This document shows positions 10,256 to 57,828 of a stretch of DNA of 64,000 nucleotides, piece after piece. The notes under the pieces were generated by a model. It searched no databases. It had not been told where the DNA came from and saw only the letters and a program-made list of their open reading frames with translations. Source of the DNA: Halobaculum sp. CBA1158 (GTDB lineage: Archaea; Halobacteriota; Halobacteria; Halobacteriales; Haloferacaceae); assembly GCF_021431925.1 (NCBI RefSeq), contig NZ_CP090371.1:1240001-1304000 (forward strand). The letters run 5' to 3'. The position numbers and the translations under genes are program-made. The stretch's first letter is position 1; each line of letters starts with the position of its first letter.

Positions 10256-10657
10256 ATGGACGATTTAGACGACGTCTTCGTCGCGCAGGTGATGTCCGAG
10301 AGTCTCTACACCGTCACGCCCGACACGCTGGTCGAGGAGGCGGCCACGGGCATGATGGAGCACGGGATCGGCTCGGTGATCGTCGTCGACGACGACGGCA
10401 CGCTTCGCGGGATCCTCACCAACACGGACTTCGTGCAGATCGTCGCCGAGCGACGACCGAAGGACCAGACGCCCGTCTCCGAGTACATGAGCACCGACCT
10501 CGTGACCGCCGATCCGGGCGACTCGCTGGCGAGCGTCGCGACGACGATGCTGGATCGGGGGTTCCACCACATGCCCGTCACCGACGGCGACAGCGGCGTC
10601 GTCGGCGTCGTCTCCACCACCGACCTCACCGCGTACCTCTCGAGCCTTCGCGCCTGA
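10256..10657 (+). CDS. Tandem CBS-domain protein
   Basis: 133 residues made of two CBS motifs, about residues 8-60 (VMSESLYTVTPDTLVEEAAT ... GTLRGILTNTDF) and 74-130 (YMSTDLVTADPGDSLASVAT ... GVVGVVSTTDLTAYL). CBS pairs usually form a Bateman module that binds adenine nucleotides and regulates partner proteins. There is no attached effector domain, so the partner is unknown. The stop codon lies inside the first unit of a 20-bp tandem repeat. Confidence 0.88.
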   Translation: MDDLDDVFVAQVMSESLYTVTPDTLVEEAATGMMEHGIGSVIVVDDDGTLRGILTNTDFVQIVAERRPKDQTPVSEYMSTDLVTADPGDSLASVATTMLDRGFHHMPVTDGDSGVVGVVSTTDLTAYLSSLRA

Positions 10658-10713
10658 GCCGTCCGGATCGAGCCTGAGCCATCCGAATCGGGTCTGAGCC
10701 GTCCGAATCCGGA
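10654..10713 (+). repeat. Three 20-bp tandem repeats over the CBS gene stop codon
   Basis: Units CTGAGCCGTCCGGATCGAGC (10654-10673), CTGAGCCATCCGAATCGGGT (10674-10693) and CTGAGCCGTCCGAATCCGGA (10694-10713). The TGA of the first unit is the stop codon of the CBS gene. Confidence 0.85.
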
Positions 10714-10784
10714 CGCCCCTCGGGCGAAGGCGACGAGGCGATCGACGGGGACACAGATTTGCGTCCCGCCACCGTCGATCGGGT

Positions 10785-11099
10785 ATGACAGTCATCGCGC
10801 TGTTGAGCGTCGCGCCGGTCGTCGAGGGGAGCATGGCGGGCGAGGTCGCGAAGGCCGTCGCCGCGCTCGACGACTTCGACGTGGCCTACGAGACCAACCC
10901 GATGGGGACCGTGATCGAGGCCGACGACATCGAGGAGGTGATGGCCGCGGCGACGGCGGCCCACCGCGCCGTCGACGGCGACCGCGTCTCCACGTTCCTC
11001 AAGATCGACGACAAGCGCGACCGCGACAGGCGCGCCCGCGAGAAGGTCGAGTCCGTCGAGCGCGAACTCGGTCGTCCCGCCCGCAGCGACGCAGAATAA
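10785..11099 (+). CDS. UPF0045 / MTH1187 family protein
   Basis: 104 residues. The family has a YkoF-like ferredoxin fold and is annotated as putative thiamine- or hydroxymethylpyrimidine-binding, with no firmly assigned role in archaea. Typical are the hydrophobic start MTVIALLSVAPVVEGSMAGE, the YETNPMGTVIEADDIEEVMA segment and RVSTFLKIDDKRDR near the end. Length fits the family. Followed by an AT-rich spacer that holds the next promoter. Confidence 0.85.
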   Translation: MTVIALLSVAPVVEGSMAGEVAKAVAALDDFDVAYETNPMGTVIEADDIEEVMAAATAAHRAVDGDRVSTFLKIDDKRDRDRRAREKVESVERELGRPARSDAE

Positions 11100-39758: not shown

Positions 39759-42700
39759 CTACGGCGCGAGCGCGTCCGCGCCTCGAACCGGCGCGCGGAC
39801 CGCGGGTTCGGCGTCGCCGACGAGGGCCACGCCCGCGGTCGAGGTGTCACCAGTCGTCGGACCGGCGGTGGCGGGTCCGTCGGCGTCGATCGAGTCGGAG
39901 GTCTGGAACGAGTCGATGCCCGACAGCGCGCTCGTGTTGTCGGAGCCGTTCGTCTCCGTCCCGTTCGCCGTCTCGTTCGTCTCCGAGTCGTTCTGTGCGC
40001 CCTCGGGTGCCTGGAGGACCTCCTCCTCCAGGGTGACGCTCACGGTGTCGTCCACGTCGCCGTTCACGACGCCCTCGCTGACGTTGAACGACCCCTGGTT
40101 GCGGATGACGTACGCCGACTCGTTGGTCTCGACCTCGCCGGTGACGGTGTAGCCGCCGTCGGCACGGACGCTGACGTTCGTGTAGCCGTTCTCGGGCCCG
40201 TACTCGTCGTACCCGGTCGTCGAGTACGGCAGCGTGAACTCGAAGCGTCCGTCCTCATCGGCGGTCGTCTGCTGCTCGTAGGTGAACGTCGAGGCGTTAC
40301 CGCCGGCCCCCGCGTTCGGCACCTCCATCCGGACGGTGGCGGTCAGCGTCTCGTTGGGGTCGGCTCCCGTGCCCTCGACGGTCGCGCCGGGCACCTTCTC
40401 GAAGGTCTTCACCCACTGCGGGCTGGTCTGCTGGAGCTGCGAGGGTCGCAGCCCGACCGCCCGCGACTCGCCGAGCACCGACCGCTGGTACTCGCTGGAG
40501 CCGTACGCCGAGGTGTCAGACGTGCTCACGAGCCGGTAGTGTTCCAGCGCGGGGACGTCCTCGCGCGGGAACGACCCGACGCCGCCGATCTGGGCGCTGC
40601 CGTCCTCCTCGACGAACTCCTGGGCGGCGGTCTCGTTGGGGAACGGGCGGATCGCCGAGGCGTTCTCGCCGCCCGGGAGGACCTTGTAGGTCGTGCCGTC
40701 CTCCGCGGTCACCGTGTCGTAGTCGAACACGATCACCTGCTCGCCGAACAGCGTGTTCACGGTCGGCTCGGCGCGGCTGCCGTGGTACTTGTACAGCCGC
40801 ACCATCATGCTCTCGTAGTAGCGCTGCTTCTTCTCGTTGAACGCCGCTCGTCCAACGACTTCCCCCTGCTGGTTCCGCTGGAGGACCGGCGAGTAGAAGT
40901 CCGACGAGGAGACGTTCCCGTCGTCGTAGAAGACGGTGGGCGCGCCGAACTTCGACCCGATCGTCGTCATCTGCCAGTCGACCATCACGTACCGCATCTC
41001 CTCGGCCTCGCCGTCGTCGTCGATCTCAGCGAGCGACTCCTCGGCGCGCTCCTCGCTGGGTGCGAGCAGGTAGTTCGCCGCCGAGGTCGCGCCCTGCTGG
41101 AACGGGTTCGCGTGCGGGACGCGCTCGCCGCGCGTGGTGATCCAGTGCCCGTAGTCCCACCACGACATCACGCCGTAGCTCCCCTCGGGGTACTCGAAGT
41201 CGTTGCCCGGAGGGCGCTCGTACGTGCCGTAATACTCCAACTCGTCGGCGTTGCCCGCGCCGCCGAGGTTCCCCTGTTCGGGGGTGTTGTCGTCCATCCA
41301 CTCCAGGTTCTCGTCCCAGATGGTCACAGCGCCCGGAGCCGTGCTGTTGCCGACGCCGACGGCGGTGTTCGTGCGGTCGATCGAGGGCTGCCCCGTGTTG
41401 CCCAGCGACAGCGGAACGACCAGTACCGGACCGAGCACGACCATGATCGTCACCGCGACCGCGACGACCTGGTACGTCTCGACGTCCGGCGTCGACAGGT
41501 CCCTCGAGAAGTCGACGCCGATGACGGCCAGCGCCTCGCGGAGGAAGTACGCGTTCAGCCCCGCGACCGCGACCGCGAGGTAGTAGTTGAACCGGACCTG
41601 CGTGAACGCGGCGGCCGTGATGAACGCCGCCCACACGAACACGAACAGGTGCTCGGCGTCGTATCGGACGCGCGCGGCCGCCCCGAACACGAGCAGCGCG
41701 ACGAGACCGAGTCCGGCCACTTGGGGGTTCAGGCCCAGCGCGCCCGCGAGGTCGTTGAAGATCGGCGCGCCGACGAACACGAACGCGACGACGAGCGCGG
41801 AGCCGCCCAGGTAGTAGTAGTCCGATGTCGTGCCACGCTTCCACAGCGGCTTGACGAGCAGCCAGACAGCCGCCGCGAGCGCCGTGATGAACGCGAATCC
41901 GTACTCGGCGAGCACGACGCCGAAGCCGCCGTAGTATCGCACGAGGCCGGACTGGAGGAACGGCTGGGCCTCGCCGATGGTACGCGCCTGTGCATTCGCT
42001 GAGAAGCCGACGAATCGGAGGAGGTTGCTCTCGATCGTCGTGAACGGAGCTGCCTCGACGAAGATGACGAGGAGGACGCCGACTGCGCCGAGGAGGCCGA
42101 CGGTGCCGGCGAAGCCGTACTCGTCGATCCGGTCGTCAGTAAACTCGCGTGCGTCGAACTGTCGAGCGAGGAACGCGAGAAGGACCGCGCCCGCGACCGT
42201 CGCGAGCGCGAAGACGGGCTGGACCAGACTGAACTGCGAGGGGGTGAACGATGCCTCCTGGAAGCGAACTAGCGCCATCAGCGCGGTCACGGTCATCGAG
42301 ACGACCGCGACGAACGCGACGTGATCCGGCGACCGGCCGCCCGCGTAGTCGCTGACGGCCTGGAACGCGACGTAGGCGGCGAAGATGCCCAACAAGAGGA
42401 CGGCCGGCGGCCACGTCCAGATGTACAGTCCGACCGCGACGCCCGCGATAGCGCTCCACGTCAGCGTCGGCTTCAGTTCGTCCCACTCGCGCGCCTGGAC
42501 GAGTTCCCAGATGGGTCGGTCGCGCTGGGCGACCGCGAGCGCGATCATGAGCGCGACGACCGCGAAGCCCTGGAAAAACGGCTCGGCGATGTTGTGGTCG
42601 GCGAAGCCGACGAGTCCCCGACGGAGGAAGGTGCCGGGGAGGAACATCAGAATGACTGCCCCGAAGAGCCCCGCGAGACGGCCGCCGAGACGTTTGCCGA

Positions 42701-43169
42701 TGAGGTAGGTGGGAACCGCGACGAGCGCGCCGAACACCGCCGGCGCGACGAGGAGGGTCTTAGCGATGAGGGTCTGGGAGGGGGACCCGAGGCCGACGAC
42801 GAGAGCTGCTGTGGCGACTAGTTGGTCGTAGAGGGTACCGAACTGGCCCTGTGCCGTGCCGAACGGGTAGTACGTCCAGGGGTCGTACGGCATCGTCGAG
42901 GGCCAGTTCGCGACGGTGTATCGGACCTCGCGGAGGTGATACCACGCGTCGTTCCCGGAGAAGTACACCTGACCGTCCCGAACGAAGTTGTCGTAGGACT
43001 GGAGGCGAACCCACAGCATGAACGCGACGACCGCGACGAGTGCCGGGACATGATAGAGGTCGCGGAGGATGTCCGTGAGCGACTTCCCTTCGAAGGAGTA
43101 GTCGATGCCCGGAACGGCGGAGGCGGGATTTCCGCCGTCCGGGGTCGTGTCGCTATCGCTTCGACTCAT
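39759..43169 (-). CDS. aglB: Archaeal oligosaccharyltransferase AglB (STT3 type)
   Basis: 1136 residues. AglB transfers the lipid-linked glycan to Asn of N-x-S/T sites on the outer face. The first 600 residues hold about 13 helices and the catalytic loops: SGNDAWYHLREV (first acidic motif) and FADHNIAEPF (second, D-x-N-type). The periplasm-side domain carries W670-W-D-Y-G674 and HANPFQQGATSAANYLLAP. A long beta-rich C-terminal part (about 700-1136) ends in a Thr/Ser/Asp-rich stretch. A TATA-like CTTAACCC (minus, about 43193-43201) sits 29 bases before the start. DUF368 follows with no gap. Confidence 0.95.
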   Translation of the reverse strand: MSRSDSDTTPDGGNPASAVPGIDYSFEGKSLTDILRDLYHVPALVAVVAFMLWVRLQSYDNFVRDGQVYFSGNDAWYHLREVRYTVANWPSTMPYDPWTYYPFGTAQGQFGTLYDQLVATAALVVGLGSPSQTLIAKTLLVAPAVFGALVAVPTYLIGKRLGGRLAGLFGAVILMFLPGTFLRRGLVGFADHNIAEPFFQGFAVVALMIALAVAQRDRPIWELVQAREWDELKPTLTWSAIAGVAVGLYIWTWPPAVLLLGIFAAYVAFQAVSDYAGGRSPDHVAFVAVVSMTVTALMALVRFQEASFTPSQFSLVQPVFALATVAGAVLLAFLARQFDAREFTDDRIDEYGFAGTVGLLGAVGVLLVIFVEAAPFTTIESNLLRFVGFSANAQARTIGEAQPFLQSGLVRYYGGFGVVLAEYGFAFITALAAAVWLLVKPLWKRGTTSDYYYLGGSALVVAFVFVGAPIFNDLAGALGLNPQVAGLGLVALLVFGAAARVRYDAEHLFVFVWAAFITAAAFTQVRFNYYLAVAVAGLNAYFLREALAVIGVDFSRDLSTPDVETYQVVAVAVTIMVVLGPVLVVPLSLGNTGQPSIDRTNTAVGVGNSTAPGAVTIWDENLEWMDDNTPEQGNLGGAGNADELEYYGTYERPPGNDFEYPEGSYGVMSWWDYGHWITTRGERVPHANPFQQGATSAANYLLAPSEERAEESLAEIDDDGEAEEMRYVMVDWQMTTIGSKFGAPTVFYDDGNVSSSDFYSPVLQRNQQGEVVGRAAFNEKKQRYYESMMVRLYKYHGSRAEPTVNTLFGEQVIVFDYDTVTAEDGTTYKVLPGGENASAIRPFPNETAAQEFVEEDGSAQIGGVGSFPREDVPALEHYRLVSTSDTSAYGSSEYQRSVLGESRAVGLRPSQLQQTSPQWVKTFEKVPGATVEGTGADPNETLTATVRMEVPNAGAGGNASTFTYEQQTTADEDGRFEFTLPYSTTGYDEYGPENGYTNVSVRADGGYTVTGEVETNESAYVIRNQGSFNVSEGVVNGDVDDTVSVTLEEEVLQAPEGAQNDSETNETANGTETNGSDNTSALSGIDSFQTSDSIDADGPATAGPTTGDTSTAGVALVGDAEPAVRAPVRGADALAP

Positions 43170-46086: not shown

Positions 46087-47733
46087 TCAGGAATCCCCCG
46101 AGCAGGTGTCTATCACCATGAATTCGCCGTGTCGTTTGATATTATCACGATTATCTATACTATCCTCTATATATTGCAACACCGAGTTGTCCTCGTCGAC
46201 CTTATCGACCCACGAGGTCGAGACGACGACGAGACAAGGACGGCGTTTGTCCAAGACGGTACCGATGTTGCTATATTTTGTTCCGACGAGGGTAACCGAT
46301 CTGTCTCCCACCGCGAACTGTTTCGGAACGTGTACGTTCTTAGTAAACTTCCCGACCCGATGTTCCCCGAGATACCATCGAAACGGAAGCGGATTTACCA
46401 CGATAGCAGTCGCTTGGGTATTTTCGCTTGCGTGGTTCGTGATATCTTTCGAGGCGTCCCCGATACCTGAATCGGTTCGGATCGAGTCGTGTGTGGTCGC
46501 CCCTCCGAGTGATGGTGGAACGATCGAAATCAAGAGTAATAGCGTGATTGCGACCGCCACGAGTCTCCTTTGTGAGGCCAGCTTCTTCGAACGCTGATCG
46601 GAGACAAATCTGACAACTACCATGGAAATTTTCACAATTAAGTATCCCGCCGCGAGAGCAAGCAGCGGATATAATGGGACGAGATATCTAGATAGTTTAA
46701 CAGATAATACTGAGTGGATGAGAAGTGGGCCGATCAGGAGTCCCACGAATCCGATGCGGATCCCTCGATCTCCGATCCGGCCGAGCGCTGCGATCACCGC
46801 TGTGACGAGTCCGGCAAGGTACGGAATACCACCGAACGTGGCGATCCAGTAGGGAAGGACCCACGCTGGAGGCGAAAAGTACGTCGTCCCCAGCACGATA
46901 ACTCGGTGGCCGTTATCCAAATGCGAGAGATTGTGAACTATCGACGCTGCAAAGGCGAATGCGACGCTTCCGAGCCACGGTATCGAGAAAATCGTTTGTG
47001 CGATTTCTGGGGGTGTGGCCCCGCCGTAGTACGTCGGTGCTGGAGAGAACGCGAACGGTAAATAGACAAGTATGAATGTGAGTACAGCCCCCACGGTGTA
47101 CGCCCGTACGATCCGTCGCCAACGGTTACGATGTTCGACGAGTGCCATCCAAGAAACGATTGCCAACAATCCGAACACGTAGAGGGCACCTTGTACCTTG
47201 ATCGAACCGGCAAACACGCTCAATGTGCCAAGTATGGATGCTGCTTGACCGTCGCGTTCTTCGCGATACCACCAGACGGTCACGCCGAAGGCCGCAGTCA
47301 CGACTACCGCTAGCGGAACGTCAAGCATCGCCATCGTGGCATAGTAGTTATACTCTGGAAGAGCAGCAAGGAGCAACGCCGCGACGAGTGCGGTCAGACG
47401 GTTGAAAACGTACCGTGCAGTTCCATAGATCACGGTGATAGAAGCGACCCCGATCATCGCAATTGGTGCACGGATTGTTTCCTCGGAAACCCCAAACAAC
47501 CACTGTGAAGCACCAATCAGGTACTTTGCGAGCGGAGCATGCATATGCGTTGGGTTTCCATGCATATTTCCTTCGATCATCGAAATACCTGCTTGCGCGT
47601 AGAACACTTCGTCCATAATCACTCCTCCAGGGAGGTTGCCCGCGTATCTGACTGTGATCAGTATTACGATAAGATAGAGCTCACCGTAACTGGTTAGCTG
47701 GTTACAAACATTAGTATATATTTTGTTATTCAT
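46087..47733 (-). CDS. GT39/ArnT-like GT-C membrane glycosyltransferase
   Basis: 548 residues. The first loop has the GT-C motif MDEVFYAQAGISMIEG with D41-E42, followed by HMHAPLAKYLIGASQWLFG, close to the H-P-P-L-G of PMT/ArnT enzymes. These use polyprenyl-phosphate sugars outside the membrane. About 11 helices follow, with SVKLSRYLVPLYPLLALAAG near the end of the membrane part, then an outer domain of about 140 residues. It faces the flippase gene tail to tail, 36 bases apart. The acceptor could be the N-glycan or a surface protein. Confidence 0.85.
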   Translation of the reverse strand: MNNKIYTNVCNQLTSYGELYLIVILITVRYAGNLPGGVIMDEVFYAQAGISMIEGNMHGNPTHMHAPLAKYLIGASQWLFGVSEETIRAPIAMIGVASITVIYGTARYVFNRLTALVAALLLAALPEYNYYATMAMLDVPLAVVVTAAFGVTVWWYREERDGQAASILGTLSVFAGSIKVQGALYVFGLLAIVSWMALVEHRNRWRRIVRAYTVGAVLTFILVYLPFAFSPAPTYYGGATPPEIAQTIFSIPWLGSVAFAFAASIVHNLSHLDNGHRVIVLGTTYFSPPAWVLPYWIATFGGIPYLAGLVTAVIAALGRIGDRGIRIGFVGLLIGPLLIHSVLSVKLSRYLVPLYPLLALAAGYLIVKISMVVVRFVSDQRSKKLASQRRLVAVAITLLLLISIVPPSLGGATTHDSIRTDSGIGDASKDITNHASENTQATAIVVNPLPFRWYLGEHRVGKFTKNVHVPKQFAVGDRSVTLVGTKYSNIGTVLDKRRPCLVVVSTSWVDKVDEDNSVLQYIEDSIDNRDNIKRHGEFMVIDTCSGDS

Positions 47734-51393: not shown

Positions 51394-52089
51394 ATGAGTG
51401 ATAATTCTCGCTATCGGCTATTACAGATACTATCTTTGATTGTTGGTCTTGGAGTCCTTGCCTTGATAGGTATAGTATTCACGCCTACGGTGTATCTGCC
51501 ACTGGCTCAGAAAACCGATCCCAATTGGCTCCTGCTTATACTTGCGATGGTTGGACTCTATGTGATTCGCCCATTCCTCTTATGGCCGTTAAGTGTATTT
51601 TCCGTGTTTATTGGTTATATATCGGGTTTCCCGGAAGGTGTTCCGTTTGTGTTACTTGGAACAGTGTTGACGTGTTTACCGCCATTCCTTCTAGCCACCA
51701 GAGTCGGCAACGATTTTGCATACCTCGGACAAGTTGCAGAACGAGGAGCAAGAATCGTAGAGACGACAGGCGAACTCCGCGGGATGGTCGCTGCTCGACT
51801 CTCACCGGCACCCGCAGACGCTGTCTCCTACAGCGCCGGACTCGCAGGGGTCTCAGCACAGTCTTTCGCTATAGGAACTCTGGTCGGCGAACTGCCGTGG
51901 GCGATTTTCTATGTGGTTATAGGTCAATCACTTCGGTCGTTTTCCGTTGGAGCGGTTCAGCAGACTGACCTCCGCCTGATTTTATTTACTGCTGTGGTCT
52001 CTTTCCTAATCATCGCTCGTCCGCTATACGAATTCGTGCGTGATAACACTAAACAAAGTGGGGATGAGCAGACAGGTCCGTTAAGATGA
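51394..52089 (+). CDS. VTT-domain (TVP38/DedA superfamily) membrane protein
   Basis: 231 residues, about six hydrophobic helices. The VTT core is visible as a re-entrant first part (PFLLWPLSVFSVFIGYISGF with PEGVPFVLLGTVL) and a second part RLSPAPADAVSYSAGLAGVS followed by FAIGTLVGELPWAIFYVVIG, where R and P of the R-x-x-P motif are conserved. Bacterial DedA/UptA members of the superfamily recycle polyprenyl phosphate. In this glycan island a similar job is plausible. Its last 9 bases overlap the end of the convergent gene. Confidence 0.8.
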   Translation: MSDNSRYRLLQILSLIVGLGVLALIGIVFTPTVYLPLAQKTDPNWLLLILAMVGLYVIRPFLLWPLSVFSVFIGYISGFPEGVPFVLLGTVLTCLPPFLLATRVGNDFAYLGQVAERGARIVETTGELRGMVAARLSPAPADAVSYSAGLAGVSAQSFAIGTLVGELPWAIFYVVIGQSLRSFSVGAVQQTDLRLILFTAVVSFLIIARPLYEFVRDNTKQSGDEQTGPLR

Positions 52090-53058
52090 TTCTAGAGTAT
52101 TTCGGTCGCGAACGTATCGATAGGAGGCGAAGACGACAGTCCCCAGAACGGCCCCGTACCAGAGTGTGCCCACCCGGATCACTAACGTTGAGCTGACGGC
52201 AATCGCCCGCGAATATTCAAAAAAGACCAGCATACCGACCATACTGGCTTCAGCAGCTCCCAGACCACCAGGTAACAGACTCGCAGCCCCGACAACCGAA
52301 CCTAATCCCAACACAAATAGTGCTAGTAGTATCGACGCGTCCGTAGCGAAGCCATTCAACACAATCCAGAGTGCGACGCCCTCCATTCCCCATGCAACAA
52401 GACTGATCACCATCGCCACGCCTAGCTGCTTTGGTCGAAAGAGTGCGTATGTGCTATCATAGAATTCTCTGATCTCATCAGCATACGAACCGATCAGAGG
52501 GATCGTTTCGCATAGAGTTAGAATTCGTAGACAAAGCGATCGCCACTGGAGGAGTGCAACGCCGCCTACAAATAGCACGGTAACACCGATCAGCGTCGTT
52601 GACGATTGTCTATACAGCACGACTCCGAGAAACGCAAACGCTGCCAACGCCAACAGATCAGTCACACGTTCTGCACCGACAACAGGCGCCGTTTGATTCA
52701 CCGGGATGCCCTGTTCGTCTCGGAGAAACCAGGCCTTCCAAACTTCACCAGCCTTTCCCGGAGTTATCACCATCATCAACCCGCTCACGAAGATCAGGAG
52801 ACTGGTCTTGAGCGGAACGTCAATCCGGAGTGTACGGAGGTAATATTCCCACTTGAGAAAGCGGATACCGTAACTCAAAGTAACGAGACCAAACACAGCC
52901 CCAATCCGCCACAATTCGAGTGACCCGAGTGCATCAACAACTGCAGGGGCATCCCCGAACAGGAAGAGGCCAAAAAAGACGGCAACTGTCAAGAGAGCGG
53001 TTACCCAGAGACCATGTGTCCGGATCGCATCCTGGATTCGATATAGATACCCGCTCAT
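52081..53058 (-). CDS. MprF-N-terminal/UPF0104-like flippase-domain membrane protein
   Basis: 325 residues, eight or more helices. The LPG-synthase transmembrane signature is clear: YGIRFLKWEYYLRTLRIDVP (R-x-x-x-W-x-x-x-L), LIFVSGLMMVITPGKAGEVW (the T-P-G-K-x-G-E motif) and GSVVGAASLLPGGLGAAEAS (P-G-G-L-G-x-x-E). MprF members flip lipids; in archaea this family is common in glycan clusters and may move a lipid-linked sugar. It overlaps the PHP gene by 4 bases, so it is in one operon with PHP and UbiA. Confidence 0.86.
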   Translation of the reverse strand: MSGYLYRIQDAIRTHGLWVTALLTVAVFFGLFLFGDAPAVVDALGSLELWRIGAVFGLVTLSYGIRFLKWEYYLRTLRIDVPLKTSLLIFVSGLMMVITPGKAGEVWKAWFLRDEQGIPVNQTAPVVGAERVTDLLALAAFAFLGVVLYRQSSTTLIGVTVLFVGGVALLQWRSLCLRILTLCETIPLIGSYADEIREFYDSTYALFRPKQLGVAMVISLVAWGMEGVALWIVLNGFATDASILLALFVLGLGSVVGAASLLPGGLGAAEASMVGMLVFFEYSRAIAVSSTLVIRVGTLWYGAVLGTVVFASYRYVRDRNTLESS

Positions 53059-53693
53059 AAGTTCAGATAAGAGAGTGCATCGTTGAGCTTCGTTGCAACG
53101 TGCCCGGAGAAATAGCCACCGCGACCACCAGTTTCCGTCGCCCCCTCACGAATTGCATTGAGGATTGGTTCTTCACACATCGTATAAGCCCGTCCCACTT
53201 CCATTGGGAAGTGAGCGTCACTTCCGCCCGTGATAGTGAGGCTATGTTTTTCTGCGAACGAGCGTGCGTTTTGGTTATACTGAGGAATAAGACAACGCGA
53301 GTTTAGCACTTCGACGCCGTCAATCACACTAGCAATCTCAGCCAGATTATCGCTGTAGTATTCCCGAAGCTTGTCAAATGGATGTGATAGAATAGCGAGC
53401 CCATCTTGATCATGTATCGCATCAATAACTGTTAGCGGGTCGTCCTGTGGTGGCGCCTTATTGACATTAAGCGCAAGCAGATGGCCCTGTGTCGTTGTTA
53501 CTTCAACGCCAGGGATGACAGTCAGGTCCGCAGGTGCAAGCGTACTCACCGCATCAAAGTCTTCAAGCGTATCGTGGTTCGTGATTGCAATCCCGTCCAA
53601 TCCGGCTTCCAACGCTGCTTCAACCACATCTTCGGGGCTTGCTCGTGAACAAGGTGATGCATCCATATGCACCTGCAAATCATACTTTTTCAT
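53055..53693 (-). CDS. PHP-domain metal-dependent phosphoesterase
   Basis: 212 residues. PHP motifs in order: MKKYDLQVHMDASPCS with H9 and D11, AITNHDTLEDF, VIPGVEVTTTQGHLLAL, ILSHPFDKL and GGSDAHFP. These supply metal ligands; small PHP proteins act as phosphatases or phosphodiesterases. It overlaps the UbiA gene and the MprF-like gene by 4 bases each. In a pathway making a lipid-phosphate ribose, a phosphatase is needed after the UbiA step, and PHP is the obvious candidate; that is inferred from context only. Confidence 0.85.
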   Translation of the reverse strand: MKKYDLQVHMDASPCSRASPEDVVEAALEAGLDGIAITNHDTLEDFDAVSTLAPADLTVIPGVEVTTTQGHLLALNVNKAPPQDDPLTVIDAIHDQDGLAILSHPFDKLREYYSDNLAEIASVIDGVEVLNSRCLIPQYNQNARSFAEKHSLTITGGSDAHFPMEVGRAYTMCEEPILNAIREGATETGGRGGYFSGHVATKLNDALSYLNL

Positions 53694-54601
53694 CGAACTA
53701 CCTCAATTGCAAGTTCGGGGACGTTGTAGAGGACAGCAATCGCTACGAGACCCCACATAATCAGGTTCGCGATCGAAGGGCGATCTGTGAGGAGATATTC
53801 TGGTTGTCCAGCCACGTCGGTTGTATGAACGAGATGATGGTAGCGGAACACGCCGAAAAAAGCAAACGGGAGTGTCACCATCATCGTTGGATCGGTGCGG
53901 GAGAACGTGTACAGCGAGTATGCCATCAGCAAGGTTGCCATCGTCATCACGAGCAATTGATCGAGGTTCCCTTTGGAGTACTCTCCAAGCACCTCTCGAC
54001 TATCGCGTGGATTTGATGTGATCTCGAGTTCGTTACGTCGTTTCCCGAGCGCGAGCACCAGCGCAAGGAGAAAGGTGCTGACGATAAGCCACGGACTCAG
54101 GAACACGTCAATAGCGATGACGCCAGCAATCGCACGGAGTACGAATCCCACCGCAACGAGCAACACGTCAACGAATACAAGTTGTTTTAAATAGAGTGAG
54201 TAAAGGGCATTCTGGGCGAGGTATACAAGTAATACAACTAGAAAGAACGGTCCGAGGCTGTACGCAGCTACCAATCCGACGAGTGTGAGAGAGCCGCCAA
54301 AGACAATCGCAACCGGGACAGGCACCTGTCCACTAGCGATGGGACGATGCTGTTTTTCAGGATGATTGCGATCCTCTTCTAAGTCGTTAATGTCGTTAAA
54401 GATGTAGGTCGCCCCAGCAACAGCGGTGAATGACACGACACCAATGAGTAGGCTGATCCACGCTTCAGCATTAAGAAGGTTCCTTGAGAAGATGATGCCT
54501 AGAAGCATCACGCCCTGTTTGTACCACTGCCACGGACGAATTTCTCGAACTAGCCCGGTAACCGTAGTAACTGGATTACTCGTGTGCGACGATTCAGCCA
54601 T
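53690..54601 (-). CDS. UbiA-family transferase like decaprenyl-phosphate phosphoribosyltransferase
   Basis: 303 residues, about nine helices. The first Asp-rich motif is N69-D70-I-N-D73-L-E-E-D77-R-N-H-P with ASG after, and R22-P-W-Q-W-Y-K precedes it, as in decaprenyl-phosphate phosphoribosyltransferase (Mycobacterium Rv3806c type). The second half has YSLYLKQLVFVDVLLVAVGF then VLRAIAG and ALGKRRNELEI, again like that subgroup and unlike quinone or archaeol UbiA enzymes. It would attach phosphoribose from PRPP to a polyprenyl phosphate. Four-base overlap with the PHP gene. Confidence 0.82.
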   Translation of the reverse strand: MAESSHTSNPVTTVTGLVREIRPWQWYKQGVMLLGIIFSRNLLNAEAWISLLIGVVSFTAVAGATYIFNDINDLEEDRNHPEKQHRPIASGQVPVPVAIVFGGSLTLVGLVAAYSLGPFFLVVLLVYLAQNALYSLYLKQLVFVDVLLVAVGFVLRAIAGVIAIDVFLSPWLIVSTFLLALVLALGKRRNELEITSNPRDSREVLGEYSKGNLDQLLVMTMATLLMAYSLYTFSRTDPTMMVTLPFAFFGVFRYHHLVHTTDVAGQPEYLLTDRPSIANLIMWGLVAIAVLYNVPELAIEVVR

Positions 54602-54661
54602 TCAGTAATCTAAATCAGCGGAGAAAAGGATGATAAAGGTAGCGTTGCTGTCTGATAGCCC

Positions 54662-55083
54662 CTACGTACTTTTTTCGAAGTATCCGTCTCTAGTCCGGGG
54701 ATCTGAATATAAATCAGCAAGTACGTGTGTATAAACCGTGACTGCTGTTACAAACGCCCAGTACGGGCTGGCCGTCCAGAGTCCGGTATGAGAACGCCAC
54801 CGATAAGCAAATGACTCAACAATCGCTGATCACGCCAGATGTCGCCGCTGTCGAATATGGAGGATTGATCGAGGAATATCTGAGCTGGGTTTCGGAGACA
54901 GCGACGAGCGTTCGTCCAGTCTCCGCGATTGATCCGCCCGATAACGAAATGATCGAGATCGATCCCGACACCCAATAGGAGCACGTATCCCCAGAGACTC
55001 GCAGATGCGGGTACACCTGAGGCCCCAACAGCAAGCGGGATTCCGATTGCGGCGGAGAGGAGTGCGTGAGCTCGGGAATACAT
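54662..55083 (-). pseudogene. DUF457-like membrane metal-dependent hydrolase, frameshifted
   Basis: The start MYSRAHALLSAAIGIPLAVG and GVGIDLDHFVIGRINRGDWT with RRCLRNPAQIFLDQSSIFDS match a small haloarchaeal family of membrane proteins with a His/Asp cluster. The frame runs on as IPDSGRPARTGRL and stops at 54748, but in the neighbouring frame LWTASPYWAFVTAVTVYTHV and ADLYSDPRTRDGYF continue to a stop at 54662. One missing base near 54785-54800 restores a 140-residue protein. It lies upstream of the UbiA gene on the same strand. Confidence 0.7.
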
Positions 55084-55271
55084 CTACAGATGAATTTCGC
55101 CGGTGAAAGGGTAATTCTGCTGGTTATATCCCTACAATATCTGTTCAGTTGGGATTGTCGAGAAGGTCACTGCATAATAAATAATATTCCTGGTTCGAAG
55201 ACGGTTCGTTCACAGCGACAAAATAGACAGAACAGAAAGCATAATGGGATCACGCTAAGTCGTTCGACACG

Positions 55272-56363
55272 ATGAGTACGATAGAAGAGGAAACATCTCA
55301 CGATAACCAATACGACTCCGTGGTTGTCACCGGGGGAACTGGCTTTCTTGGCCTCCATACGTGCCAGCATTTGGATGAACAGGGCTGGGACGTAACTGCA
55401 CTCGATCTGAAGCCGTTCAACGAAGAGGACGATACAGAGGATATTGACTTCATAGAAGCAGACGTCCGCGACGAGGATGCCGTATTGGATGCGTTTGAAG
55501 AAGCTGATGCCGGCGTAGTTGTCCATAGTGCGGCAGCACTTCCTCTCTGGGACGATGACGAAATTTGGGAGGTGACGGTAGACGGCACGCGTTCTGTGCT
55601 CTGGGCAGCAAGTGAACTCGACATCGATCGAGTCGTCTACATTTCCTCAACAGCAGTCTATGGAACCCACGAAACGCACCCAATTACGGAAGAGTCACCG
55701 CTTGATGGTGTCGGACCATACGGCAACGCCAAAATAGAGGCCGAAAAAGTCTGTAAGGATTTCCGTCGGATGGGGATGTGTGTCCCAATTATTCGGCCGA
55801 AAACGTTCATCGGTCCGCAACGGCTCGGAGTCTTCCAGGTTCTGTTTGATTGGGTTGAGGACGGTGCAAATGTTCCACTCGTAGGGTGGGGTAACAATCA
55901 ATACCAACTCCTGCACGTGGACGATCTCGTGCGAGCAATTAAGTTGATGTTCACGTTGGAGGAGCAGGATGTGAATGACACATTCAACGTGGGTACGACT
56001 GAGTACGGCACTATGAAAGAGGACTTCCAAGCATTGCTTGACGAAGCCGGTACTGGGAAGCGTGTGATCGGGACGCCTGCCCCTCTTACTGTGTTTGCGC
56101 TCCGCGTGTTGAACGCACTCAATCTCTCACCGCTGTATCCATGGGTATACGAGACTGCTCACGAGGATTCATATGTGTCTGTAGAGAAGTTGTGCGATCT
56201 TGGTTGGGAACCCGAATACTCGAATAAGGAGGCTCTAGTTGATACTTATCACTGGTATCTAGAAAACTACGAAGAAAATACTGACAATACTGGGAAGGAC
56301 CATCGGGTAGCGTGGGATCAGGGCGCTTTACGATTTGTCAAACGTGTGTTTCAGAGTGTGTAA
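55272..56363 (+). CDS. NAD-dependent sugar epimerase/dehydratase (extended SDR)
   Basis: 363 residues. Rossmann motif GGTGFLG at 21-27 and catalytic Y150-x3-K154 (YGNAK) with Ser/Thr in YISSTAVYG upstream. The FEEADAGVVVHSAAALPLWD segment and VPLVGWGNNQYQLLHVDDLV are typical of nucleotide-sugar or related epimerases. In DPA synthesis an SDR (DprE2) works with an FAD enzyme (DprE1); no DprE1 is in this window, so a nucleotide-sugar substrate remains equally possible. It stands next to a GT-C gene on the same strand, 22 bases apart. Confidence 0.86.
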   Translation: MSTIEEETSHDNQYDSVVVTGGTGFLGLHTCQHLDEQGWDVTALDLKPFNEEDDTEDIDFIEADVRDEDAVLDAFEEADAGVVVHSAAALPLWDDDEIWEVTVDGTRSVLWAASELDIDRVVYISSTAVYGTHETHPITEESPLDGVGPYGNAKIEAEKVCKDFRRMGMCVPIIRPKTFIGPQRLGVFQVLFDWVEDGANVPLVGWGNNQYQLLHVDDLVRAIKLMFTLEEQDVNDTFNVGTTEYGTMKEDFQALLDEAGTGKRVIGTPAPLTVFALRVLNALNLSPLYPWVYETAHEDSYVSVEKLCDLGWEPEYSNKEALVDTYHWYLENYEENTDNTGKDHRVAWDQGALRFVKRVFQSV

Positions 56364-56385
56364 ATAACAGTTTTAGATAGAAGAT

Positions 56386-57828
56386 ATGAATTACAAATTT
56401 GGGCAGATTATTGATTTAATCGAAAGGAGAAATGGAGAGCTGTTGTTGGGAGCGGTTGCACTAGTTGGAGCAACAAATCTGATACTGCTCCTGTATGACA
56501 TCGTATATGCGTTGACTCTGTCACAGTCGATCGATTATGCTGAGGGATTTGTTCTTAATTATGCCCTGAACTGGGACGCTATGTTTCAACCAGTAGAAAC
56601 TGCACCTCATTTGGTTACTAATTACCCTCCGGTTTACCCTGTTATTGTGGGTATTCTTGATATAATTTTCAACAATATTTTCTTTTCATCTAGATTTGTC
56701 TCAGTTATATCTGGATTTTTTGTCGCCGCGTTATCAAGCTTGCTCCTATATCGGGATACCGACGCTCATTCAATTGTGGCACTAACACCCGGGATCATAT
56801 TTCTTTTCAGCCCAATTGTATCACAGCGTATTCTGTTGGCACGAGTAGATATTCTTGGAATGACATTCTCAATCGCAGCAATTTATTGGTTTATGACACG
56901 TAGCGGCCGGATTCAGTTGGTCGGAAGCGGACTTCTCTGTCTTCTTGCGTTGTATACTAAGCAGTCCTTATTTGTGGCGCCAGCAGCAATCGTGTTAACA
57001 CTTATAATTCGGCAAGAGTTCCGACGAGCAACAGCATTCAGTATAGGGCTCGGTGGTGTCGGACTCGGTCTACTTGGCGTTTTGACTTTTTTGACCGGAG
57101 GGGAGGCATGGCTACATTTGGTGACATACAATCAAAATACCTACTCTCTCTTTCCGGTTATAAGAAAATTATATTCTATTGGACAGGTTCATTTGATTGT
57201 CTTCGCATTTGCAGGCACAGCAATTTTGACAATGTGGCGGGCGCTGCCGACCGTTATGGTAGCTTACTTTATTGTCGGTAGTATCCGAATTCTTCTTGGG
57301 GGTAAGGTTGGGTCGGGACCGACACCCTATCTGAGTATGATTCTCGGTGCGGGAATTCTTGCTGGATACTTTATTACCTATTGGAATAAGGAACTACAGA
57401 TAGGAAGTATTCGTAATAAGGTAAACGGTAGAACTGCACTAGTAGTCTTTCTAGTCATATTACAACTCGGGGCATTCCTATCCCCACCAGTTTCACCATA
57501 TGGAGACGCTGAGCAGGCTGACCTAATGATAGAAGATGGTTCAAAGGTGCTATCGGAGGATGCTGGATTGCTTATTGGGTCTAATAGTGCTATTAATTAT
57601 CAGCCATTTATTATGCGGCAGTTAATGCGGCAAGAAATAGTCACCACAGACCCCATAATCAACGATCTTGACTCGGGAGAATATGACTATGTTGTATTAT
57701 TATTTAATGTGTCACATAAATCAGAGTGGCACACAAGCCGATGGACTCCGGAACAGATCAATGCCATTCGTGATAATTATAAATTATATGCTCAACCAGA
57801 TGGGTATTGGATCTATAAACCAAAATAA
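56386..57828 (+). CDS. GT-C-type polytopic membrane glycosyltransferase
   Basis: 480 residues, about 10-11 helices. The first outer loop has IDYAEGFVLNYALNWDAMFQ followed by HLVTNYPPVYPVIVG, the GT39/GT87-like pattern of an acidic pair (D-x-x-E) then Y-P-P. The C-terminal soluble part (about 370-480) includes DAGLLIGSNSAINYQPFIMR and DYVVLLFN. It probably uses a polyprenyl-phosphate sugar outside the cell. The gene is the most AT-rich long gene of the window. It follows the epimerase gene and may be cotranscribed. A true acceptor is unknown. Confidence 0.75.
   Translation: MNYKFGQIIDLIERRNGELLLGAVALVGATNLILLLYDIVYALTLSQSIDYAEGFVLNYALNWDAMFQPVETAPHLVTNYPPVYPVIVGILDIIFNNIFFSSRFVSVISGFFVAALSSLLLYRDTDAHSIVALTPGIIFLFSPIVSQRILLARVDILGMTFSIAAIYWFMTRSGRIQLVGSGLLCLLALYTKQSLFVAPAAIVLTLIIRQEFRRATAFSIGLGGVGLGLLGVLTFLTGGEAWLHLVTYNQNTYSLFPVIRKLYSIGQVHLIVFAFAGTAILTMWRALPTVMVAYFIVGSIRILLGGKVGSGPTPYLSMILGAGILAGYFITYWNKELQIGSIRNKVNGRTALVVFLVILQLGAFLSPPVSPYGDAEQADLMIEDGSKVLSEDAGLLIGSNSAINYQPFIMRQLMRQEIVTTDPIINDLDSGEYDYVVLLFNVSHKSEWHTSRWTPEQINAIRDNYKLYAQPDGYWIYKPK

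Follow-up and report, generated by a model that had tools for sequence, protein, structure and literature searches.

We analysed a 64,000-nucleotide stretch of the genome of the haloarchaeon Halobaculum sp. CBA1158 (contig NZ_CP090371.1, positions 1,240,001 to 1,304,000 of the forward strand), called the window below. The window contains a cassette of genes for a UbiA-superfamily protein resembling decaprenyl-phosphate phosphoribosyltransferase (DPPRS), a PHP-domain phosphoesterase, an MprF-like membrane protein and an extended short-chain dehydrogenase/reductase (SDR), which together are predicted to make a lipid-phosphate pentose (Table 1). The UbiA, PHP and MprF-like genes all lie on the minus strand at 52081-54601, with a 4-bp overlap at each of the two junctions. 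Thus, the coordinates and overlaps of an operon proposed in an earlier note on this DNA are borne out. The SDR gene is divergent from this string, and a gene for a polytopic protein starts 22 bp after it. The VTT/DedA gene converges on the MprF-like gene with a 9-bp overlap. The GC fraction of the cassette region is about 0.5, against about 0.7 across most of the window, which is consistent with an acquired surface-glycan island. A second copy of the block (locus L009) is located elsewhere in this genome, at a distance of about 80 kb, and includes the genes for the VTT, MprF-like, PHP and UbiA proteins, a small membrane open reading frame (ORF) and the SDR; unlike in the window copy, a PMT_2-type protein follows its SDR. 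Because the block is duplicated in the genome and the UbiA-PHP string occurs in all 21 UbiA-positive genomes described below, the gene arrangement is not due to chance.

Table 1. Genes of the cassette region and its glycosylation context, in window coordinates
Feature	Position	Strand	Match or predicted role
UbiA-superfamily protein, DPPRS-like	53690-54601	-	predicted polyprenyl(dolichyl)-phosphate 5-phosphoribosyltransferase using 5-phosphoribosyl pyrophosphate (PRPP)
PHP-domain phosphoesterase (PHP + PHP_C)	53055-53693	-	PF02811, PF13263; predicted phosphoribosyl-lipid 5'-phosphatase
MprF-like (LPG_synthase_TM) membrane protein	52081-53058	-	PF03706, TIGR00374; predicted lipid-phosphate-pentose flippase
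Extended SDR, NAD-dependent epimerase family	55272-56363	+	PF01370 148 bits; predicted lipid-phosphate-ribofuranose epimerase
Polytopic 480-aa protein	56386-57828	+	topology only; candidate GT-C pentosyltransferase
VTT/DedA-family membrane protein	51394-52089	+	PF09335 60 bits, weak UptA match
Small membrane ORF between UbiA and SDR	54748-55083	-	copy in L009 alignable
aglB/STT3 oligosaccharyltransferase	40000-43169	-	TIGR04154 891 bits; N-glycosylation island context
PMT_2-type GT-C glycosyltransferase (context)	46087-47733	-	PF13231 52 bits, PF02366 41 bits

The UbiA Protein Belongs with DPPRS

Against the NCBIfam DPPRS equivalog NF008977 (curated cut-off 234 bits), the window UbiA scored 229 bits and its paralog in the second copy 233 bits. 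Several relatives from outside Halobacteriales exceed this cut-off. Models of geranylgeranylglycerol-phosphate geranylgeranyltransferase (DGGGPS) gave the window protein only about 34 bits, and its NF008977 score is far above that of every non-DPPRS single-domain UbiA model. With phmmer, the top match of known structure was Rv3806c (8j8j, E 2e-31), and the 8j8j and 8j8k chains were the sole solved matches at the default threshold. The active-site motif NDxxDxxxDxxHxxKxxRP is kept, and all residues that bind PRPP and Mg are retained. In the alignment, N69, D70, D73, D77, H80, K83 and R86 are invariant among the haloarchaeal UbiA proteins, their bacterial relatives and Rv3806c; K187 and R188 are likewise shared with Rv3806c and the bacterial relatives. 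Residues N247, D248, D251 and D255 of Citrobacter ORF15, whose importance has been shown by mutation (PMC11127046), correspond to N69, D70, D73 and D77 of the window protein. In the tree, UbiA falls into a group with Rv3806c and DPPRS-like proteins of bacteria, apart from the DGGGPS- and MenA-like proteins of the same genome. The earlier note had taken this protein to be DPPRS-like and had named grouping with DGGGPS or quinone enzymes as the refuting outcome. It turned out that UbiA falls with Rv3806c instead, and the subfamily scores, the Rv3806c match, the active-site residues and the tree all agree with the assignment.

The general UbiA domain by itself would also fit an ordinary prenyltransferase of quinone, heme or archaeal lipid synthesis whose neighbours are coincidental. 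We regard this as extremely improbable. The subfamily scores, the invariant DPPRS residues, the tree and the conservation of the cassette speak against it, so that we rejected a DGGGPS, quinone or heme role, and the genome has further UbiA genes able to fill the prenyltransferase roles.

Occurrence of the Cassette in Halobacteriales

We compared 195 Halobacteriales genomes. A DPPRS-like UbiA was found in 21 of them, and in all 21 it adjoins a cassette-type PHP, defined by at least 55% identity and E < 1e-60. PHP paralogs in genomes lacking such a UbiA are at most 45% identical, except in G168. The MprF-like gene is adjacent in 20 of the 21 genomes, the exception being G124. Thus, the UbiA-PHP-MprF-like string, whose co-occurrence in related genomes the earlier note had put forward as a check, stays together in nearly every UbiA-positive genome. 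Orthologs of the SDR occur in 19 genomes, all UbiA-positive, and in none of the other 174 (hypergeometric P ~2e-24, uncorrected for ancestry and linkage). The two UbiA-positive genomes in which it was not found are G124 and G133; in the draft assemblies G099, G111 and G121 it is retained on a separate contig. Divergence is correlated between the four proteins, with r 0.75-0.88 for their pairwise distances. Common ancestry and the physical linkage of the genes inflate both the co-occurrence and the correlation figures, and the gene-by-gene specificity is still clear.

Genome G168, from the same family, carries a decayed cassette (L074 7713-10284). Only the last 72 residues of UbiA are left and the SDR is gone, the VTT gene remains, and the PHP and MprF-like proteins are 77% and 86% identical; aglB is present in the same locus. 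A variant cassette was seen in G124 (L080 7536-12929). It has UbiA and PHP with a different SDR gene on the upstream side, and its PHP has no MprF-like neighbour; the next gene, on the opposite strand, encodes a 572-aa polytopic protein.

PHP, MprF-like and Small Membrane Proteins

In the PHP protein, residues H9, H40, E64, H104, E128, D159 and H161 are invariant, including in relatives outside Halobacteriales. The HxH motif begins with Gln (residue 7) instead of His in nearly all haloarchaeal cassette members; G124 and the relatives outside the order keep His there. It was also seen that Cys15 is invariant among the haloarchaeal cassette members. The protein is predicted to act as the 5'-phosphatase of the phosphoribosyl lipid. 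The MprF-like protein matches PF03706 (138 bits) and TIGR00374 (92 bits, cut-off 43.2), and is predicted to be the flippase of the lipid-phosphate pentose.

Elsewhere, the VTT gene adjoins the cassette in just three loci, L009, L034 and L074; its product may serve in recycling of polyprenyl phosphate, returning the carrier. The small membrane ORF of the window is 62% identical to the L009 copy (10626-11042) over 99 aa and then continues in another reading frame, so it looks frameshifted relative to that copy.

The SDR and the Identity of the Sugar

The SDR contains the motifs TGGTGFLG (TGxxGxxG) and YGNAK (YxxxK), as expected of an extended-SDR epimerase, and its sequence family is generally GalE-like. 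Searching for a DprE1-type oxidase, we found no match to the ALO domain (PF04030) in this genome, and three control genomes did match. Because no ALO-domain oxidase was found, the DprE1/DprE2 route to arabinose is unlikely. The presence of one SDR only, which is also the case in Citrobacter O2, points rather to the C3 epimer (xylofuranose), and the C2 epimer (arabinofuranose) may be an alternative product. By this analogy, xylofuranose would be at least as likely as arabinose. The earlier idea of a polyprenyl-phospho-pentose gains from the UbiA class and the cassette co-occurrence, and its arabinose version is not preferred over xylofuranose.

Related Clusters outside the Order and in Bacteria

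A DPPRS-like UbiA is present in further archaea of the same phylum. In G420, G214, G276 and G359, UbiA, PHP and the MprF-like protein are clustered with a DUF362-type protein alongside and no close SDR ortholog. The archaeon G376 has the gene order UbiA, a fusion of a HAD phosphatase with GtrA, a 54% identical SDR and a PMT_2 GT-C. Since the HAD-GtrA fusion replaces both PHP and the MprF-like protein, it is the best evidence that these two slots mean phosphatase and flippase. SDRs orthologous to the window protein are encoded in a Spirochaetia operon (UbiA-GtrA-polytopic protein with a weak PMT_2 match-SDR), in the Streptomyces SAT1 cluster (SDR-UbiA-GT2-EEP-GT2-LPG_synthase) and beside a DPPRS-like UbiA in Nonomuraea. 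Specific co-occurrence and linkage across domains, beyond mere proximity, argue that the SDR is part of the system. An alternative set is seen in Desulfonatronospira, where UbiA is accompanied by a small GtrA-like protein, a DprE1-like FAD protein, a DprE2-like SDR and a polytopic GT-C-like protein. We assigned GtrA and DprE2 by sequence inspection only.

Clusters of UbiA without the SDR were seen with an adjoining DUF362-type protein of about 360 aa in the loci L113, L115, L117, L119 and L120, from archaea outside the order. The family was assigned by Pfam for the L115 copy, and the other copies were likened to it by their sequence start. A protein of about this length with a similar sequence start also stands beside a DPPRS-like UbiA cluster lacking the SDR in L048 (Kosmotogaceae). 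Where there is no SDR, such proteins may provide another modifying step. In carriers without the SDR, use of ribofuranose would be expected, provided that neither the DUF362 protein nor some other enzyme alters the sugar. On the rhizobial symbiotic plasmids L096 (Sinorhizobium fredii NGR234 pNGR234a) and L097, a 34-35% identical SDR relative was found together with an SMR transporter and a GMC oxidoreductase; on the NGR234 plasmid, a UbiA gene is a few genes away from the SDR relative. This set is possibly a related pentose pathway.

These clusters bear on two other explanations. According to the first, the pathway ends with dolichyl-phosphate ribofuranose as donor, and the substrate of the SDR is a nucleotide sugar destined for the same glycan instead of the lipid-linked pentose. 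The general GalE-like family of the SDR, the strings lacking it outside the order and its absence from G124 and G133 would fit. However, the link of this SDR family with a DPPRS-like UbiA holds in haloarchaea, in one further archaeon and, among bacteria, in a spirochaete and in actinomycetes, and the GalE-like SDR of Citrobacter has been shown genetically to act as a pentofuranose epimerase (PMC11127046). We therefore consider this explanation unlikely. Still less probable is that UbiA phosphoribosylates another lipid (an archaeal phospholipid or glycerolipid) and that the MprF-like protein exports the ribosylated polar lipid, with no glycan donor being made. MprF itself is a phospholipid flippase, and one weak NCBIfam relative, at 34.6 bits vs a cut-off of 320, is a flippase of glucosaminyl phosphatidylglycerol. 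However, in archaea and bacteria alike, the cassette or its related clusters have GT-C-type or polytopic proteins as neighbours, the solved homolog of UbiA is annotated as a decaprenyl-phosphate enzyme, and GtrA, SMR or HAD-GtrA proteins occupy the flippase slot of related clusters.

The GT-C Slot and the Glycosylation Context

The 480-aa protein has about nine transmembrane segments by hydropathy and a large C-terminal region, that is, a GT-C-like topology. Profile searches gave no match to any GT-C family, and no homologs were found in the 194 other genomes. The AlphaFold2 model from the single sequence is unusable (predicted local distance difference test score, pLDDT, 40). A BLASTP comparison between the two copies of the block found no homology between the polytopic proteins encoded after their SDR genes. 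Thus, the GT-C label that had been given to this gene could not be confirmed, and this is the weakest slot in the window copy. The protein is a candidate GT-C enzyme by its topology and by the enzymes that occupy the same slot elsewhere. In several relatives, the SDR gene is followed by one for an AglS-family protein (PF15971, dolichyl phosphate-mannose mannosyltransferase) or a PMT_2 GT-C. Among the control genomes, PF15971 had a match in Haloferax volcanii only, whose AglS transfers mannose that reaches the outer face bound to dolichyl phosphate (PMC3871713). The STT3/AglB oligosaccharyltransferase is located about 9 kb from the cassette. Because of the AglS-family and PMT_2 neighbours and the nearby aglB, modification of N-glycans or the S-layer appears from the context to be the likeliest end use.

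Comparison with Known Systems

The bacterial three-component pentofuranose pathway, described in 2024, consists of UbiA, a 5'-phosphatase, a flippase and a GT-C, with a GalE-like SDR added for xylofuranose (PMC11127046). The cassette resembles these Citrobacter youngae O1/O2 systems in its DPPRS-like UbiA, which is predicted to use PRPP, in the predicted dephosphorylation and flippase steps and in the GalE-like SDR, which is optional in those systems and determines their pentose; for the GT-C it has a candidate. As in three-component systems, the candidates for UbiA, phosphatase and flippase share one locus, the latter two functions being predicted only. The window SDR was likened to the O2 SDR (ORF13) by family motifs and described role only. 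Citrobacter has a UbiA-fused HAD domain as phosphatase and a MATE-family flippase, whereas the archaeal cassette has a separate PHP protein (HAD-GtrA being found only in G376) and an LPG_synthase_TM protein. The host is an archaeon and the carrier presumably dolichyl phosphate.

With the mycobacterial decaprenyl-phospho-arabinose pathway (Rv3806c, Rv3807c, DprE1/DprE2) the cassette shares the UbiA catalytic residues and, by prediction, the UbiA chemistry and the phosphatase and epimerisation steps. Mycobacteria use DprE1/DprE2 and an Rv3807c-type phosphatase, whereas the cassette has a single extended SDR and PHP. The mycobacterial precedent drawn on before holds for the UbiA likeness, yet it is not the only one: the 2024 bacterial systems with a single GalE-like SDR epimerase are the closest known (PMC11127046). 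As in the AglD-AglR-AglS system of Haloferax volcanii, a dolichyl phosphate-monosaccharide made inside would cross the membrane and be used by a GT-C (PMC3871713), and the AglS family adjoins several cassettes. The Haloferax volcanii donor is mannose from a glycosyltransferase, whereas the donor of the cassette would be a PRPP-derived pentose. In the open-licence literature we found no archaeal report of a pentofuranose-donor pathway, the bacterial system being the sole pertinent paper. Arabinose and ribose have been noted in a Natrialba exopolysaccharide (PMC12457646); these are tentative peaks of gas chromatography-mass spectrometry, and we did not use them as evidence.

Discussion

We consider it probable that the cassette is an archaeal system for a lipid-phosphate pentofuranose donor, which is used by a GT-C enzyme and lies in an aglB-linked island. 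This is argued by the families of the UbiA, PHP, MprF-like and SDR proteins, the intact UbiA catalytic residues, the conserved linkage and the specific co-occurrence. In the proposed pathway, whose lipid, sugar, order of steps and acceptor we infer, UbiA would work at the cytoplasmic face and transfer 5-phosphoribose from PRPP to a polyprenyl phosphate, which in haloarchaea would be dolichyl phosphate. PHP would then remove the 5'-phosphate, giving dolichyl-phosphate ribofuranose. By a transient oxidation with NAD, the SDR would invert one ring hydroxyl and so yield the xylo- or arabinofuranose donor, which the MprF-like protein would bring to the outer leaflet. There, a variable, acceptor-specific GT-C enzyme would transfer the pentose to surface glycans, which are probably the S-layer or N-glycans because aglB is nearby, and VTT may return the carrier.

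Several points weigh against this pathway, which is proposed from the gene sequences. The UbiA score is slightly below the DPPRS equivalog cut-off, and the split from other UbiA proteins in the tree is moderately supported (85/90), with long branches. PHP carries Gln where a metal-binding His is usual. MprF-like proteins handle several lipids, so the substrate and direction of the flippase are guesses, and the 480-aa protein is an orphan. Nor did we find firm structural work describing a pentofuranose glycan in any haloarchaeon that carries the cassette.

It is possible that the pathway is widespread in archaea. PHP would then be a new kind of phosphoribosyl-lipid 5'-phosphatase, the MprF-like protein would flip a lipid-phosphate monosaccharide, and the SDR would replace DprE1/DprE2; haloarchaeal glycans would contain xylo- or arabinofuranose and those of some relatives outside the order ribofuranose. 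The arguments for and against this wider picture seem to us evenly balanced. The bacterial pathway is already known, and what seems new is an archaeal version with a different phosphatase and flippase. Since Haloarcula amylolytica, Halococcus and Natrialbaceae are culturable carriers, a direct test is possible. If the proposal is true, PRPP-derived pentofuranose donors enter archaeal glycobiology, the cassette PHP and MprF-like proteins gain likely functions, and the phosphatase and flippase would prove to be exchangeable, in bacteria and archaea alike, around a UbiA core that is conserved.

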